Below are positions 27,081-34,800 of a stretch of 64,000 bases of DNA, one piece after another. The stretch spans positions 558,001 to 622,000 of the forward strand of contig NZ_QRGD01000001.1 in the NCBI RefSeq assembly GCF_003449015.1, in the 5' to 3' direction. The notes under the pieces were generated by a model. It was given only the letters and a program-made list of their open reading frames with translations. It did not search any database and was not told the DNA's origin. The translations under genes were made by a program, and so were the position numbers. The first letter of the stretch is position 1, and each line of letters starts with the position of its first letter. This DNA is from Aureibaculum luteum (GTDB lineage Bacteria > Bacteroidota > Bacteroidia > Flavobacteriales > Flavobacteriaceae).

Positions 27081-27443
27081 ATGGACAAACTTACCACCAA
27101 AGAAGAAGAATTAATGCAAATTTTATGGAAGCTAAAAAAGGCCTTTGTTAAAGAACTTGTTGCTGAAATTCCTGAACCTAAACCTCATTACAATACCGTT
27201 TCCACGGTAATACGAAAAATGGAAGAAAAAGGGTTTATTGCACATGAAGCTTTTGGTAATACACACAGGTATTATCCAAAAATATCAAAAGAAGACTATA
27301 GAAAAGGTTATTTTTCTAATGCTATTGATAATTATTTTGGAAATTCTTATAAAAATGTAGTCTCCTTTTTTGCGAAAGAAGAAAAAATTAGTGCTGATGA
27401 ATTGCGAGAAATCATAAAAATTATTGAATCCAAAAAAGACTAA
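27081..27443 (+). CDS. BlaI/MecI/CopY family transcriptional repressor
   Basis: A 120-residue winged-helix repressor: LTTKEEELMQILWKLKKAFV, PKPHYNTVSTVIRKMEEKGF, then HRYYPKISKEDYRKGYFSNA and a C-terminal dimerisation helix set. In the family, proteolysis within the C-terminal part releases the DNA. The next gene, 4 bp later, is an M56 membrane metallopeptidase, the standard partner that senses and cleaves such repressors. No beta-lactamase is nearby, so the pair probably senses another envelope signal. Confidence 0.93.
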   Translation: MDKLTTKEEELMQILWKLKKAFVKELVAEIPEPKPHYNTVSTVIRKMEEKGFIAHEAFGNTHRYYPKISKEDYRKGYFSNAIDNYFGNSYKNVVSFFAKEEKISADELREIIKIIESKKD

Positions 27444-27447
27444 CATT

Positions 27448-29586
27448 ATGGACTACTTTTTAAAGGCAAATGGACTCGTTATTTTATGGATTGTTTTTTA
27501 TTACTTATTTCTAAGGAATGAAACCTTTTACAATTCGATAAGAACCTATTTTTTGGTGGGATTGCTATTTATACTTTCCATTCCACTGATTGAAATCCCC
27601 ATCTATATTGAAAAAACAGTTTCGAATATTAATTATATTCTAATTGAAGGCTCAACAACATTGAACACACCTATTGAGCAATCATTTGATTGGTTGCAAA
27701 TAATGACAATTATTTACCTAGTTGGCGTTGTCTTTTTTACTGCTAAATTTATGATGCAATTATTTTCTTTAAGTAAATTAATTTCAAGGCATAAAATATT
27801 TAATGAAGGCAACTATAAATTAGTTGAAACTGAGAAGGATATCTCACCATTTTCATTTTTTAAATATATAATTTACAACAAAAGCCAATTCACTCAAAAT
27901 GAACTAAAGCAAATCATTACGCACGAAAAAACACATGTAAAGCAATGGCACTCTATTGATACTTTACTTATTTATATTTTACAAATTGTTTTTTGGTTTA
28001 ACCCTTTTGCATGGCTTTACAAAAGAGGAGCTCAACAAAACTTAGAATTTTTGGCAGATGTATCAGCAAGTCGACAATCATTCAATTTAAAACAATATCA
28101 ATTTACTTTACTTAAAGCAAGTAATACGTATCATTACGAAGCTATTACTAATAATTTTTACAACTCATTAATAAAAAAACGTATCGTTATGTTAAACAAA
28201 TCAAAATCGAAAAAAATAAATTATTTAAAATATTTCTTAATACTACCTTTATTAGCGGTATTTCTATTTGCTTTTAACACAAAAACTGTAGCTCAAGAAA
28301 AAGAAAAAAAGCAATCTCAATGGGTAGTATCTGCAGGTGTTTCCATTGATAAAAACACTTCAGACACAAAATTAAAAGAAATTAAAAGCACCTATAATAA
28401 AAAAGGAGTGGAATTAAGGTACAAAACAAAACGTAATTCTAATAATGAAATCATTAAAATTGATATTACACTTAAAGACGAAAAAGGAAAAGTGGCATGG
28501 ACTGAGAATAACAATGCCCCTATTAAACCATTTGAAATTATTTACACTCCGGAAACAAAAGAAAAATCAATTAGAGCAGTAAATAGTTTAAAAACAACAA
28601 CAGTTGTTGGTTATGCTCAAAGTAATAATGAAACAGAACCTTTGTATATTGTTAATGGTAAAGAAAGCTCAAAAGAAGTATCCGAATTGATTAATCCTGA
28701 TGAAATTAAGAGTGTAAGTGTTTTAAAAGATAAAAGTGCTTCTGACAAATACGGCGATAAAGGTAAAAATGGTGTTGTTGAAATTAAAACAAGCAAAATT
28801 AACAAATCAGATGAAAAATCCAAAAGTAAAAGTGAATGGAAAATCAATTCTGGGAGTCGTATTGAGAAAAAAACTGATAGTCTTAGTGAATGGAATGTAA
28901 CTGCTGTTAGAAATAATGTTGCTTTTTCTACACCTGACACCTTATATCGGTACGAAAAAAAGGATTCTATGCTTTCTCTTGACATGGATAATTCAACTTT
29001 TCATCCATTATACATTATTGATGGAAAAGAAAGCACTAAATTGGAAGTTGAAAATCTAGACCAGCAAAGAATTGCTTCTGTTTCTGTATGGAAAGGCGAT
29101 CAAGCAACGGCACAATATGGCACCAAAGGAAAAGATGGTGTTATAAGCATCATAACCAATAATTCCAAAAAAATAAAGCCTACCGTTCAATTGAGCAGTA
29201 AAGCTTTATATGTTTTAAATGGTAGAGAAACTACAAAAGAAGCCATAGAGCTTATTTTACCTGATGACATTGCGAGTGTAAATGTCATTAAAAATGAAAA
29301 TGCTATTACTAAATATGGTGATAAAGGTAAAAATGGCGTAGTTGAAATCAAGACAAAAATTATCTACAGAAATCAGATAAATATTGACAGTAAAAACCCT
29401 TCAATTATATTCGGTGAAGAACCTCTAATTATTATAAATGGAAAAGAAAGCTCCATTGAAATGAAGAAAGCGTTAAATCCCGATAATATCAAGAGCATGA
29501 ATGTCTTAAAAGATAAAAATGCCACAGAAAAATATGGAGACAAAGGCAAAAATGGTGTTATTGAAATCACCTTAAAAAAAGAATAA
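27448..29586 (+). CDS. M56 family (BlaR1-like) metallopeptidase with four TonB-plug-like repeats
   Basis: A 712-residue membrane protein counted from the ATG at 27448, 4 bp after the blaI stop; a TTG at 27424 lies inside blaI and is less likely. The N-terminal part has four or so membrane helices and the zinc motif HEKTH (about 159-163) followed by FWFNPFAWLYKRGAQQNLEF. After a last helix (about 268-282) come four tandem copies of a segment of about 55 residues starting near 396, 519, 586 and 657. Each has LYI(V/I)(N/D)GKES, an (I/V)(A/K)SV or SM motif, and KYGDKGKNGVVEI or a close variant, as in the plug domains of SusC proteins. The extracytoplasmic repeats may be the sensory part. Confidence 0.88.
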   Translation: MDYFLKANGLVILWIVFYYLFLRNETFYNSIRTYFLVGLLFILSIPLIEIPIYIEKTVSNINYILIEGSTTLNTPIEQSFDWLQIMTIIYLVGVVFFTAKFMMQLFSLSKLISRHKIFNEGNYKLVETEKDISPFSFFKYIIYNKSQFTQNELKQIITHEKTHVKQWHSIDTLLIYILQIVFWFNPFAWLYKRGAQQNLEFLADVSASRQSFNLKQYQFTLLKASNTYHYEAITNNFYNSLIKKRIVMLNKSKSKKINYLKYFLILPLLAVFLFAFNTKTVAQEKEKKQSQWVVSAGVSIDKNTSDTKLKEIKSTYNKKGVELRYKTKRNSNNEIIKIDITLKDEKGKVAWTENNNAPIKPFEIIYTPETKEKSIRAVNSLKTTTVVGYAQSNNETEPLYIVNGKESSKEVSELINPDEIKSVSVLKDKSASDKYGDKGKNGVVEIKTSKINKSDEKSKSKSEWKINSGSRIEKKTDSLSEWNVTAVRNNVAFSTPDTLYRYEKKDSMLSLDMDNSTFHPLYIIDGKESTKLEVENLDQQRIASVSVWKGDQATAQYGTKGKDGVISIITNNSKKIKPTVQLSSKALYVLNGRETTKEAIELILPDDIASVNVIKNENAITKYGDKGKNGVVEIKTKIIYRNQINIDSKNPSIIFGEEPLIIINGKESSIEMKKALNPDNIKSMNVLKDKNATEKYGDKGKNGVIEITLKKE

Positions 29587-29611
29587 GATAAAAACGTACT
29601 TTATTAAGTTC

Positions 29612-29632
29612 ACGCTCTGTTTTACAGAGCGT
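29612..29632 (+). terminator. Terminator of the blaI-M56 operon
   Basis: A 9-bp perfect stem ACGCTCTGT / ACAGAGCGT with a TTT loop and a following run of T. Confidence 0.92.
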
Positions 29633-29652
29633 TTTTTATGTAATTTTGTAAT

Positions 29653-29811
29653 GTGAAAAAGCATATATTCAAAATAGTAGCAAAATTGAACAAATTACTA
29701 TTGCCAAGTCTCTCTAAAAAAGAGATTGACTTGAGCAAAGCTAGCAAGCTACAATTGGCTTTAATCGGCTGGCGTTATTATGTTACCAAAAACAGTTTAG
29801 ATTCCAACTAA
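29653..29811 (+). CDS. 52-residue conserved-type small protein
   Basis: A GTG-started reading frame of 52 codons, 21 bp after the terminator. The product begins MKKHIFKIVAKLNKLLLPSL, continues SKKEIDLSKASKLQLALIGW and ends RYYVTKNSLDSN. It has the look of a small protein I associate with flavobacterial genomes (K...LLPS...DLSKASK.Q.A.IGWRYYVT), but I cannot name a function. It is basic, has a central amphipathic helix and no clear signal peptide. It is followed 30 bp later by the DUF2007 gene. Confidence 0.6.
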   Translation: MKKHIFKIVAKLNKLLLPSLSKKEIDLSKASKLQLALIGWRYYVTKNSLDSN

Positions 29812-29841
29812 CTTTTCGTATCTTTAAATAAAATTATTATC

Positions 29842-30081
29842 ATGGACAATACTTCTAAACATATCAAATTCTTTACAGGCTCTTTAATTGAAATTCAACG
29901 TTTACAATTAGATTTGGATGACAAGGAAATCCCATCATTGGTAAAAAACAATTTTGAATCAGGATTACGTTCTGGTTTTTATGGAGGATCACCATCTCAA
30001 GTACAATTATTTATCTATCAAGAAGATTTTGATAAGGCGAAACCCATTCTTGAAAGTTTCAAAAAAGAAATGGGAATATAA
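29842..30081 (+). CDS. DUF2007 domain protein
   Basis: A 79-residue protein of the DUF2007 (putative signal-transducing protein) type: KFFTGSLIEIQRLQLDLDDK, then IPSLVKNNFESGLRSGFYGG and VQLFIYQEDFDKAKPILESF. These small ferredoxin-like domains are widespread, sometimes fused to others, without a proven function. There is no signal peptide. It lies just before the tRNA-Arg gene. Confidence 0.85.
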   Translation: MDNTSKHIKFFTGSLIEIQRLQLDLDDKEIPSLVKNNFESGLRSGFYGGSPSQVQLFIYQEDFDKAKPILESFKKEMGI

Positions 30082-30120
30082 ATTTCTTAGACTTATTCTT
30101 TTATTATCTCAAAAAAGGAA

Positions 30121-30128
30121 TATATTTG
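30121..30128 (+). promoter_or_regulatory. -7 box of the tRNA-Arg promoter
   Basis: TATATTTG followed by CACTC, the same 13-base string as before rplU. It lies 18 bp before the tRNA, as expected for a stable RNA promoter. The -33 region is not clear. Confidence 0.65.
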
Positions 30129-30146
30129 CACTCCAAATAAAAAATT

Positions 30147-30220
30147 GGCCTCGTAGCATAACTGAATAATGCACTTGATTACGGCTCAAGAGATTATAGG
30201 TTTGAATCCTATCGAGGTCA
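30147..30220 (+). tRNA. trnR(acg): tRNA-Arg (anticodon ACG)
   Basis: A 74-nt cloverleaf. The acceptor GGCCTCG pairs with CGAGGTC (one G-T), the D stem is GCAT/ATGC, the anticodon arm is CTTGA-TTACGGC-TCAAG with anticodon ACG, the variable loop is AGATT and the T arm is ATAGG-TTTGAAT-CCTAT; the discriminator is A and CCA is not encoded. The T-loop has T56 in place of C56 and the D-loop reads G18-A19, so the usual G19-C56 contact could be A-U. The ACG anticodon is expected to be deaminated to ICG. The last 16 nt recur in the array downstream. Confidence 0.96.
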
Positions 30221-30244
30221 CGAATAAACGTTTTAATAAGAAAA

Positions 30245-30272
30245 AACGCCAAGCTTGCTTGAGCGTTTTTTT
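30245..30272 (+). terminator. Terminator of tRNA-Arg (repeat unit A1)
   Basis: Stem AACGC-CAAG / CTTG-A-GCGTT with one bulged A and a run of seven T residues, 25 bp after the tRNA end. Confidence 0.85.
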
Positions 30273-30525
30273 GTTTAAAATATTTTCAAAGCGGAGCTTT
30301 GTAGGATCATGACCGCAGGAAGCTATCCTATCAAGGTCACATCACAAACAAAATCACGTCCCAAAGGGCGTGATTTTTTATTTTGTGTAGAAATCGAGCT
30401 CGCTCGAAATTTCGAAATAAAATAAAAAATTAGGGCGACAGCCCGTGGTTTTGTATTTGCAAAAGAGAGTTTATTCTGGATATACAATCCTATCGAGGTC
30501 ACGAATAAATATTAAAATAAGAAAA

Positions 30526-30555
30526 AACGCCAAGTTCGCTTGAGCGTTTTTTTGT
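30526..30555 (+). terminator. Terminator-like hairpin in repeat unit A2
   Basis: The same stem as in A1 but the loop is now TTCG, closed by CAAG/CTTG, followed by T7. A2 also has an extra 6-bp hairpin TCCCGA-ACCG-TCGGGA at 30571-30586 that A1 lacks. Confidence 0.8.
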
Positions 30556-30968
30556 TTATAATATTTTCAATCCCGAACCGTCGGGAGGAGCTTTGTTGGA
30601 TCATGACCAAAGGGAGTAATCCTATCGAGGTCACATCACAAACAAAATCACATCCCAAAAGGCGTGATTTTTTATTTTGCGTAGAAATCGAGCTCGCTCG
30701 AAATTTAGGAATAAAATAAAAAATTAGGGCGACAGCCCGTGGTTTTGTATTTGCAAAAGAGAGTTTATTCTGGCTATACAATCCTATTAAGGTCACTTTA
30801 AGCACAAAACAACGTCTCGAAAGGCGTGGTTCTTTTTTTATAGAAAAATGGAACCCGCTCGCATTTTTAATATAAAAAAACTAGAACGATAGCCTGTTGT
30901 TTTGAATTTACAAAAGAGCGTTTATTTAGGGTCATGAAAAAAAACCTATCGAAATCACTAATAAATGG

Positions 30969-31002
30969 AAAAGCAAGCAAAATCATTAAGCTTGCTTTTT
31001 TG
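30969..31002 (+). terminator. Terminator-like hairpin in repeat unit A3
   Basis: A 10-bp perfect stem AAAAGCAAGC / GCTTGCTTTT followed by more T. Its sequence differs from the A1/A2 stems though it holds the same place in the unit. Confidence 0.8.
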
Positions 31003-31236
31003 ATTTTGTAGCATTGTTATTTTAAGAGCAGAGCTTTGTTAGGTTGCCTTGGCAATCCTATTGAAGTTAGGTTACCCTAAACCTAAAATCAAGTTCCAAA
31101 GAACCTGGTTCTTTTTTATAAAAAAATCGAACCCGTTCGAAATTTCAATTAAAATAAGAACTAGGGCGACAGGCTGTGGTTTTACATTTGTAAAAGAGCG
31201 TTTATTCAAGATCATGTATTAATTCTATTAAGGTTA

Positions 31237-31583
31237 GATTAAGCACAAAAACAAAATAACAATAATATCCTTTTACCTTTCTCTTCCTATATTTACATTG
31301 TCTACCTTTTTTTTACAAACTATATTTTAATACTAAAATCCCACCAATTAAATACACCTATTGTAAAAGTCTTTATAATTTCTTTTAATAAAATTACAAG
31401 TTTATGGGTAATTCCTTTTAATCGAATAAGATACTATCGATTTGCATTTCGTTCTTATTCCTTAATTTTTAAGCTCATACATATTATATATAAAATAAGT
31501 TAGCATAATTTGCTACCCAATTTTTAATTTTTCACCACGGCTACTCTTTTTTAATTTGTATTCTAAATAAATATTGAAATTAT
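31237..31583. other. Non-coding gap between the repeat array and the susC promoter
   Basis: About 350 bp of very AT-rich DNA. I see no convincing reading frame, RNA gene or repeat apart from the fading end of the last B-like unit (AAGCACAAAA also follows the tail at 30780). Confidence 0.5.
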
Positions 31584-31662
31584 TTTGTATTACTAATTAA
31601 AAAGAATATATTTGGCAAACCAATCTGGTAAACCAATTTGGAGAACCAATTTGGAGAACCAA
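31584..31662 (+). promoter_or_regulatory. Promoter and four-site operator array for susC1
   Basis: A -33 box TTTG (31584-31587), 19 bp, then a -7 box TATATTTG (31607-31614). Four 12-bp palindromes start at 31612, 31625, 31638 and 31651, exactly 13 bp apart: TTGGCAAACCAA, CTGGTAAACCAA and TTGGAGAACCAA twice. The first overlaps the -7 box by three bases, so bound regulator would cover the transcription start. The same design is found at 46100, 56152 and 61571. The leader to the susC1 ATG is about 215 nt. Confidence 0.8.
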
Positions 31663-31837
31663 ATTTTTCTTTGAAATTTAAATACCATTACTAAAAATTA
31701 ATCTATTTAAAAGGTTGATGTATACCTAAAGTAAAGCCACAATATTATTTTGATTTGGAGCAAACTTCAAACTAAAAGATACTTTACCATAAATGCAATA
31801 TTTAAAATTATCAAATACTAACTTAAGTTAAATAATT

Positions 31838-34800
31838 ATGATGAAAAACAAAGTAAAATTAGTGAGGGCTTACCTTTTGACTTTCCTGCTTTTTACAGCA
31901 GCTATGGCCAACGCCCAACAAAAAAGCGTTACTGGAAAGGTAACCGCTGCTGATGACGGAATGCCATTACCGGGAGTTAATATTTCCGTAAAAGGAAGTA
32001 CTACAGGAGCCTCAACAGATTTTGATGGTTTATATTCAATCGATGTATCTGGTAACGATGCAGTACTTATCTATAGCTTCATCGGTTTTGTAACCCAAGA
32101 AGTGCCAGTGGGTTCACAATCTGAAATTAATGTAATTCTTCAAGCTGACAATAATGAGCTGGATGAAGTTGTTGTGGTTGGATATGGAACTCGAAAAAAG
32201 AGTGATATTACTGGAGCTGTATCTTCAGTTAAGTCTGAAGAATTAACTGCATTTCCCGTAGCTAGTGCAGAACAAGCACTTCAAGGACGTGCAGCCGGTG
32301 TTGTTGTGCAATCTAATAATGGTGGTGAACCTGGAGCTCCTATCAACATAAAAATTAGAGGAAATACTTCTATTAATGCAAGTAGCTCACCTCTAATTGT
32401 TGTAGATGGTTTTGTAGGTGCAAGTATGCCACAAGCGAACGACATTGAATCTATGGAAGTGTTGAAAGATGCGTCTGCAACAGCCATATATGGTTCTAGA
32501 GGTTCAAATGGTGTGGTTTTAGTAACTACTAAAAAAGGTAAAAGTGGTAGATTAAACGTTGAGCTTAACACTTCTTATGCAGTTCAAAATGTTTCTAACA
32601 GATTGGATTTACTTAATGCAAATGAATTTACTGATTATCAAAACCAGGTTAGAGCTAACAATGGTGTTTCTTCAAGTTACCCACAAGGTACTGCTGATAC
32701 TGACTGGCAAGACTTAATTTATTCTACAGGTAGTACTCAGAATCACCAACTTTCTTTTTCAGGTGGTAGTGATAAAATTAATTTTTATGCTTCTACCAAT
32801 TATTTTAAACAAGATGGGATTATTATAAATTCTGATTATATCAAACTATCATTCTTGTCAAATATTGATGCACAAGTTACAGATAAGTTAAAATTAGGTA
32901 TGAACCTTTCAGGAAATAGATCAACTAAAAATGGTGCCTCTACTAAATCAGACGGTTCTGTTTCTGCGGGTGGAGATGACATCATTACATTAGCAATGAG
33001 ATATGCACCAGACCAACCAGTATATAATGATGATGGTAGTTATAATTTCGGTAATACTGTAGGAGATCCAGTTGATAATCCATATGCAATTGCTAAAGAA
33101 AGAATAGACGAAACTAAAGCTGATAACTTTAGAGCGAATTTTTATGCAAATTATGATATTATAGAAAATCTTACTTTTAAGACTACATTTGGCTTTAGTA
33201 CTGATAATTCTACTAATGGAATTTACTTACCAAAAGTATTGACGCAGACTGCAGGTGGAGACGGAGGAAGAGCTATAGTTGAAACTGATAAAAAAACTAG
33301 TGTTTTGAGCGAAAACTACTTAACCTATAATACAGAGTTGGGAAAAGGAAATTTAACTTTATTAGCTGGTTACTCTTATCAAAAAACTGTTTCAGAAAAT
33401 TTTTATTCAGAAGCAACAGGCTTTATTACAGATGCTTTTTCTTATTACGGTCTAGGCTCTGCTACAAATGTATTACAGCCTGATTCTTCAATTTCAACAG
33501 TAGAAATTCAATCTCAATTCGGTAGGGTTAACTACGATTATGATGATAAATATTTACTAACGGCTACTGTAAGACGAGATGGAGCTTCTAATTTTGCAGC
33601 AAATGAAAAATACGCAATTTTTCCTTCAGCAGCTATTGGTTGGAAAATGTCGAATGAAAGTTTTCTAAAAGATAGTGAAACTATATCTAACTTAAAATTA
33701 AGAGCTAGTTATGGTGTAACTGGTAACCCATCTATTGGTGCTTACGAATCTTTAGCTAGATTTGAAACACTATATGCTTCTAGCAATGGAGAAACCGTCA
33801 GTGCAATTACACCAGAACAACCTGAAAACCCAGATTTAAAATGGGAATCTTCTTACCAAACAAATATCGGTGTAGACTTAGGTTTCTTAAATAATAGATT
33901 TACACTTTCGTTAGATTATTATAATATTGATACTAAAGATTTAATTTTAACTGACAATAGTATAACTGAATATTTAGGATATACAGGAGATGACATTTTA
34001 GCGAATGTAGGTGAGATTAATAATAAAGGATTTGAAATTGCTTTAAGTACTAGAAATATATCTACTGATAATTTTAGATGGACTACAGATTTCAATTGGG
34101 CAACTAATAAAAACGAAGTGGTACAATTAGTTAACAATGCAGATTTATTTTACAATGCTGCTCCAAGCTACTTTAGTCATGATAGAAGTTATGTTTTAAG
34201 AGTTGGTGAAGAAGTTGGACTTTTCTGGGGCTATGACTACGCTGGTGTTTTTCAAGGCGGATCAGCACCAACAGGTACTGCAACTTTATCAGGTGGTGTA
34301 GCAGGTGACCCATTGTTCGTAGATCAAGATAGTAGTGGTGATATTACTGAAGCTGATAGAACAACTATAGGTAACCCTAATGCAGATTACACTTTTGGTA
34401 TCACGAATAACTTTACTTACAAGAATTTTGACATGAGTATCTTTTTTCAAGGTTCACAAGGTGGAGATATTTTCAATATGACTAATGTACAGTTGACTAA
34501 CGGAGATGCAAATACTACTAGAGACTATTTTAATAGTGCTTGGACATCTTCTAATACTGACACTAACACTCCTCGCGTTGGAAACAATAGTAATAGAGAA
34601 ATTTCTTCTCGTTTTGTTGAGGACGGAAGTTATGTTAGATTAAAAAATATAGCAGTTGGTTATAATCTACCTTCAGATGTTATAGAAAAATTAGGAATGG
34701 AAAATATAAGATTGTCTTTTAGTGCACAAAACTTATTGACTTTCACAAATTATTCAGGCTTAGATCCAGAAGTGAGCTACTTTGGTAGAGGTGGAAATAA

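Follow-up and report, generated by a model that had tools for sequence, protein, structure and literature searches.

How did the 3′ end of a tRNA gene come to be written seven more times along the DNA that follows it? The question is raised by tRNA-Arg(ACG), the one tRNA gene that ARAGORN reports in the stretch of Flavobacteriaceae DNA analyzed here (64 kb, hereafter the window). Its 17-nt tail has seven further copies in an array reaching position 31237 (Table 1), with 2, 0, 0, 2, 3, 4, and 5 mismatches of 17 from the tRNA outwards. Between the tails lie units of two types, A (102, 115, and 95 nt) and B (145, 145, 145, and 150 nt), in the order A-B-A-B-B-A-B. The copies, the two types and their order had been recognized in a preliminary description and are borne out here, as are six of its seven tail starts, the remaining one having been placed at 30943 instead of 30942. 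The age gradient that it read from the tails holds in part: the distal copies are indeed the most diverged, but the nearest one (two mismatches) is worse preserved than the next two (none). On the plus strand of the 64 kb, five sites, tRNA included, match 16 letters of the tail with at most two mismatches, compared to a mean of 0.04 in 50 mononucleotide shuffles.

The first A unit consists of a terminator hairpin enclosed in a longer stem, a second small hairpin and a pre-tail, i.e., the 40 nt preceding a tail copy. A cmscan search of positions 29500–32000 against Rfam, up to an E-value of 5, returned 16 matches, among which the tRNA alone passed its threshold; SurA and the other non-tRNA candidates scored far under their cut-offs and were discarded. 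In the neighborhood of the array, a BlaI/BlaR1-like pair (by eye) lies upstream of the tRNA at 27081–29586, its second protein harboring four repeats of the type LYIVNGKES...YGDKGKNGVVEI, and about four head-to-tail repeats of 13 bp (consensus ATTTGGAAAACCA) occupy 31610–31662, upstream of a gene at 31838 that looks SusC-like (by eye).

Table 1. Features of the tRNA-Arg(ACG) array, with positions in the window, strand and supporting evidence.
Feature	Position	Strand	Evidence
tRNA-Arg(ACG), encoded to C74	30147..30221	+	ARAGORN; Rfam tRNA 59.6 bits
Tail inside tRNA gene (tRNA positions 58-74)	30205..30221	+	border tally, tail scan
A unit 1	30222..30323	+	R1 99.7 bits
Tail copy, 2 mismatches	30324..30340	+	tail scan
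B unit 1 (four-way junction, pre-tail)	30341..30485	+	R2 130.2 bits
Tail copy, exact	30486..30502	+	tail scan
A unit 2	30503..30617	+	R1 79.1 bits
Tail copy, exact	30618..30634	+	tail scan
B unit 2	30635..30779	+	R2 115.9 bits
Tail copy, 2 mismatches	30780..30796	+	tail scan
B unit 3	30797..30941	+	R2 85.1 bits
Tail copy, 3 mismatches	30942..30958	+	tail scan
A unit 3 (variant terminator)	30959..31053	+	R1 80.3 bits
Tail copy, 4 mismatches	31054..31070	+	tail scan
B unit 4	31071..31220	+	R2 73.8 bits
Last tail copy, 5 mismatches	31221..31237	+	tail scan

The reading that we favor, with a probability of about 0.72, is that small non-coding modules of two structured families, A and B, are stacked in the array, having been inserted repeatedly and site-specifically at tRNA 3′ ends in Flavobacteriaceae, with copying of tRNA positions 58–74 and later recombination. 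An insertion would place the module immediately downstream of the tRNA gene, followed by a second copy of positions 58–74, and the tRNA would be left intact and gain the terminator hairpin of the module. Each later insertion at the tRNA-proximal tail would move the existing units farther from the tRNA, and their tails would decay there; homologous recombination between like units would then duplicate or delete some of them. We infer that the insertion is enzymatic and proximal by rule, with an enzyme that acts in trans and may be a site-specific recombinase using the tail as its attachment core.

The copied block is 17 nt long, covers tRNA positions 58–74 (all such positions follow our own numbering), and is sharp at both ends. 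Among 50 distinct tail copies behind seven tRNA species, 33 of them from tRNA-Arg(ACG), the match to the same tRNA is present at position 57 in 3, at position 58 in 49, at position 74 in 49 and at position 75 in 16. These copies were gathered from 200 distinct tRNA loci, 60–2500 nt downstream and outside other tRNA genes, and positions 57, 74, and 75 are the informative ones because copies were chosen with at most one mismatch over the 16 letters 58–73. An origin of the units from whole pseudo-tRNAs is ruled out by the border at 58. Moreover, the copies follow the local tRNA. At tRNA-Arg loci of other genomes, three exact copies of AATCCTTCCGCGATCA, including the tRNA's own, are found at a tRNA-Arg(TCT) (L035), and three exact copies of AATCCTGGCGCGATCA at L039. 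Similarly, a B unit in L186 is followed by the 17 letters AATCCCTCCGGCTCCAC, identical to the 17 letters preceding it, which are presumably the 3′ end of a tmRNA; ARAGORN reported no tmRNA in this locus.

When used as a query against 100 genomes (its own and 99 relatives), the array found matches in 85, mostly over the tRNA part of the query among the matches listed, and tail copies were also seen behind tRNA-Arg of other genomes in the loci so obtained. Two covariance models were built, R1 for A units and R2 for B units. Each has matches in at least 15 of the 17 genomes of the genus, and R2 in at least 60 of 199 genomes of the family (E-value of 1e-4, stricter filters) and at least 9 of 247 genomes drawn from the phylum, counts that come from the best 150 candidates per genome, or the best 17 or fewer in the family and phylum draws, so that absences are soft. 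Seven of the nine belong to the same family (own genome included) and two to other families of the class, in which three R2 loci adjoin tRNAs Arg(TCG), Arg(ACG), and Ser(TGA). Scanning named genomes with a pattern yielded 71 stretches with an A unit behind GGTCAC, in genera including Gelidibacter, Winogradskyella, Muricauda, Croceivirga, and Christiangramia, as well as in Flavobacterium caeni.

A and B are thus two families of structured modules, with members behind Arg, Ala, Val, Ser, Pro, Met, Lys, His, Phe, Leu, and Tyr tRNAs, and the view of a local case seeded by tRNA-Arg(ACG) alone, as first proposed, is not supported, the modules being accompanied by the tail of the local tRNA. For these comparisons, 127 R2 matches from 78 hand-chosen loci were reduced to 89 distinct B rows and 125 R1 matches from 88 loci to 102 A rows, by removal of other-strand overlaps and identical sequences and, for A, of rows shorter than 70 nt. 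The B unit starts at most 7 nt from the end of a tRNA in 58 of the 89 rows, one of these tRNAs being degenerate. The targets are Val (TAC 10, GAC 6), Arg (ACG 9, TCT 5, TCG 4), Ala(GGC) 7, Ser(TGA) 4, Pro (GGG 3, TGG 2), Met 3, and one each of Lys, His, Phe, Leu(GAG), and the degenerate gene; an A unit lies behind Tyr(GTA) in L049. The 17 nt preceding B are within three mismatches of a known tRNA tail in 85 of 89 rows (72 exact), using a list of tails drawn from the same loci, compared to 1 of 300 random positions. For A, 82 of 102 rows directly follow a recognizable tail (76 exact) and the other 20 do not, a count that is biased because many loci were fetched by a pattern demanding GGTCAC. 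The preliminary description would have been refuted by units lying mostly away from tRNA genes, and these counts did not refute it.

All 35 tRNAs of the own genome were inspected, in the window or in fetched stretches, two of them standing at contig ends without flank; R1 or R2 matches occur behind Arg(ACG), Arg(TCG), Ala(GGC), and Ser(TGA), with a weak one behind Ser(GCT). Among phages, two records matched the array query, both over its positions 43–122, essentially the tRNA (48–122). Plasmids gave eight places in four records, the best four of the eight covering query positions 26–145, i.e., the tRNA and its edges, and viral contigs gave no exact match to one A pattern. Some complete units are followed by sub-repeats (L158, L182, L196, L211), which in L158, L182, and L211 amount to about half a B unit with AATCC at the start or the end; those starting at AATCC (L158, L182) speak against a simple module model. 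At L226:6376–6600, a degenerate tRNA-Ser-like gene (ARAGORN: unknown) precedes a B unit and half-B repeats.

The older proposal of a composite array grown by repeated events at the tRNA end is supported by these data, whereas tandem duplication, offered as the other possible cause, does not suffice by itself. A process in which tRNA 3′ flanks, or entire tRNA genes, simply duplicate in tandem and then decay would account for the near-identical neighboring units in L035, L170, and L232, which resemble its products, and for a tandem of four tRNA-Arg(ACG) genes spanning about 430 nt in L023 (genome G087). It is nevertheless very improbable, as A and B are mutually unrelated sequences, the tail copies stop at 58 on their 5′ side, and related modules carry other tails behind other tRNAs in other genera.

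The clearest trace of an insertion is found behind tRNA-Ala(GGC). In G016 (L136), an alignment shows a stretch of 143 bp between the tRNA and a B unit, with an exact 17-bp duplication of the tail. In G000 (the own genome), G009 and G011, the tRNA is identical up to position 57, B stands flush behind it and the 143-bp stretch is absent; G012, with a more divergent tRNA-Ala gene, also has B flush and likewise lacks the stretch. The simplest reading of these sequences is an insertion in one lineage; this is the sole clean case aligned, its orthology rests on the sequences of the tRNA and B, and on the B tree the B of G011 falls away from those of G000, G009, and G016. Homologous recombination also reshapes the arrays, as indicated by the sister genome G007, in which the first A-B pair of the window array is missing and whose first B is recombinant: it agrees with the first B of G000 at three of six diagnostic sites and with the second at the next three. 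On the B tree, the amino acid of the tRNA changes 29 times, between a possible minimum of 10 and 43.6 with shuffled labels, in a tree of few columns with 32 of 84 forks open and two partial B rows omitted. The excess over 10 speaks for switches of target, in favor of the insertion reading. B sequences also cluster by tRNA type beyond shuffled labels, and inheritance in place explains much of their distribution. The labels are those of the nearest known tail, and the 29 changes may be a few too many or too few because the tails of L184, L185, and L186, tmRNA-like by eye, were labeled Arg or Pro, the tail list holding no tmRNA tail.

Among the forms that the favored insertion could take, one is a target-site duplication by a casposase-like or other integrase cutting any tRNA tail with a 17-nt stagger, in which case growth would be polar, as in CRISPR arrays. 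Such a duplication accounts for the local tails and the fixed 17-nt block, for the G016 insertion with its duplicated tail, and for the adoption of new tails that the 29 changes on the B tree require, given weak forks and some doubtful labels. Casposases also insert at tRNA 3′ ends with duplications of 14–15 bp (PMC6977970). We nevertheless consider this form unlikely. The casposon duplication of M. mazei comprises the last 4 bp of the tRNA and 10 bp beyond (PMC6977970), and a duplication overlapping only the last tRNA bases is not what is found here, where the block is 58–74. Furthermore, A and B have no common ends by eye, and the corresponding block in E. coli is at least 19 nt long.

The folds of both module families show compensatory changes. 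In A, the terminator lies inside a longer stem, with 29 pairs of which 15 are compensated among 17 sequences. B forms a four-way junction of 44 pairs, 27 of them changed on both sides among 12 sequences. An initial MAFFT alignment of 19 B sequences had given a poor consensus fold of seven pairs; the B fold was projected from constrained single-sequence folds and written by hand for the 12 sequences, and is for this reason partly derived from the sequences tested. In B, 89.7% of the fold cells are paired, vs. 76.1% when shuffled and at most 54.1% when slid, and 92% of pairs are standard over the 89 rows, the slid versions and the rows fitted to the model being checks of which neither is fully independent. 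G-T cells outnumber A-C cells beyond the shuffled ratio in B (223 to 73, shuffled 449 to 323, 89 rows) and in A (161 to 23, shuffled 222 to 85, 102 rows, a single column pair giving 76 of the 161), and the single strand in the tRNA sense therefore seems to fold, as RNA or as DNA.

The pre-tails could often pair with the tail that follows. A stem of at least five pairs complementary to the next tail, with loops of 5–22 nt, is present in 31 of 48 pre-tails (shuffles: mean 5.0, highest 11 in 500) and such a hairpin is absent from the other 17. In a stricter five-letter test, the complement of the own positions 60–64 occurs in 21 of 48 pre-tails vs. 88 of 1470 comparisons with differing tails, and in none of four pre-tails of the tail class TCCTA, to which the window belongs. 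The idea that the pre-tail is a copy of the 5′ strand of the tRNA T-stem was examined at the nine loci in which this strand and the tail copy are not perfectly complementary, and was rejected: four hold the Watson-Crick complement and not the copy (L034, L133, L288, L303), two hold both (L006, L047), and three neither (L027, L170, L199).

Compensatory changes in both families and the excess of G-T over A-C cells, which points to folding of the sense strand, raise the question of a function as RNA. The modules may be kept as structured RNAs or as terminators of tRNA transcripts (sponges, processing signals) whose copy number is selected, an explanation compatible with insertion. Most B folds end at their 3′ side in TATTTGCA, e.g., at 30454–30461 in the window, which we take to be close to the −7 promoter box of Flavobacteria; a promoter there, if real, would transcribe the next tail. 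Folding of the sense strand would however suit single-stranded DNA equally, and R1 or R2 matches stand behind only 5 of the 35 tRNAs of the own genome, one of them weak, so that we regard a selected RNA function as rather doubtful.

Another form of the insertion reading is mobility of cassettes through a tyrosine integrase: neighboring tails would recombine, and a unit would leave as a small circle and re-enter at a tRNA tail. The left border would then mark where the crossover begins or ends, and the right border would coincide with the point at which the functional tRNA gene stops. The use of these very sites by integrase islands makes such a mechanism plausible. In the own genome, phage-integrase genes (PF00589, PF13102, PF17293) lie just behind tRNA-Val(TAC) and tRNA-Pro(GGG). 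Some 88 kb downstream of the former, with no change of contig or strand, there is a Val(TAC)-like tail with a B unit, and a displaced Pro(GGG) tail (exact 58–74) with a B unit exists as well; both would be the far ends of islands. The first would be an 88-kb island (G000:C45 237901–326514; L203, L228) with its integrase adjoining the tRNA and, near its far end, sulfatase-like and aldehyde-dehydrogenase-like genes (by eye). For the second, the integrase behind tRNA-Pro(GGG) and the displaced Pro tail with B are on different contigs (G000:C8 25042, G000:C1 3231; L212, L227). In addition, C74 is the last copied position here, and in E. coli the encoded CCA belongs to the block; the 26-bp core of phage Ms6 likewise ends at C74 in our numbering (PMC1762012).

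On the other side, the window units measure 95–150 nt between tails and contain no integrase, and the left borders of other displaced copies vary by eye from 49 to about 61 (L174, L177, L181, L189, L194, L229), whereas array units keep 58. Conservative recombination also leaves unexplained the new tail acquired upon a change of target tRNA. We thus give cassette mobility by a tyrosine integrase somewhat less than an even chance, and we cannot choose firmly between it and the duplication of the target site.

Genes are found within some arrays. In L239:5871–8200 (G174), a tRNA-Arg is followed by a B unit, a tail, 1.9 kb with a KAP NTPase gene (PF07693, 1.7e-38), a tail and a second B, which groups on the tree as sister to the first one; a link to phage defense is common among KAP genes. 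In L230:1754–3400 (G042), the second B behind a tRNA-Ala is split by an open frame of 358 aa that has no Pfam match and presents a lipoprotein-like start (by eye) and repeats with IHGVS. These genes may be cargo of gene-bearing cassettes or later insertions. An A unit behind a tRNA-Arg is interrupted at L037:1084–2600 (G009) by an insertion that is IS3-like by eye.

The preliminary description knew of no earlier account, and none of such arrays in Flavobacteriaceae was found in CC-licensed PMC papers. To our knowledge, the tyrT repeats of E. coli have so far been a single oddity without agreed origin. The arrays reported here are numerous, show two conserved folds, share the left border of E. 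coli and give these repeats a counterpart across a whole family. The origin of tRNA-tail repeats becomes testable with them: there are candidates for recent insertions, the base that is targeted is known, and a mechanism is suggested by the integrase islands occupying the same sites. Should the modules move, they would be mobile modules of very small size and specific for their site; as RNAs, they would make up two new families of structured RNA associated with tRNA genes. The favored reading could be extended to a cassette system attached at tRNA and tmRNA 3′ ends, made of non-coding modules and occasionally genes, that copies position 58 to the encoded end and grows outwards, the same process having made the tyrT repeats of E. 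coli; this extension is possible, though the odds are against it.

Among known systems, integron gene cassettes are also stacked modules with separators resembling recombination sites and a possible recognition of hairpins, whereas the modules here are non-coding. The 17-bp duplication corresponds to the target-site duplication of a MITE; as to terminal inverted repeats, the B core has ends that pair with each other in the outer stem, but by eye A and B have no ends in common. Casposons share the target at tRNA 3′ ends; they differ in the position and length of their duplication and are coding elements with terminal inverted repeats (PMC6977970). The genomic islands that tyrosine integrases place in tRNA and tmRNA genes, collected in Islander (PMC4383910), present the same target, a block restoring the tRNA 3′ end and a displaced tail at the far end. 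On the contrary, islands carry an integrase and are kilobases long, and the window units are non-coding, 95–150 nt long and stacked.

A close likeness is with tyrT/tyrV of E. coli (rtT RNA/rttR), already noticed in the preliminary description, where copies of the local tRNA tail likewise begin at position 58 and take in its encoded 3′ end. In E. coli K-12 (L324), exact copies of the tyrV tail stand at +178, +356, and +534, in line with a repeat of 178 bp, and the tyrT-tyrV spacer holds one copy at +175 of tyrT. All four start at 58, include the encoded CCA and measure 19 nt, so that the left border is common to the arrays of Flavobacteriaceae and the best-known case; the three tyrV copies agree at letters 77 and 78 as well, and the right border of E. 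coli is therefore not fixed. The E. coli unit holds GGGGAAGGAT, by reading a 10-nt reverse complement of tail positions 59–68, like the complement in the pre-tails here. No rtT homology was seen in the window array among the Rfam matches mentioned above, and E. coli differs by a single tRNA species, a single repeat type at tyrV and the CCA in the tail. We place the arrays of Flavobacteriaceae with the tyrT-type tail repeats of E. coli, as a variant of them, with a real chance that they form a distinct mobile system.
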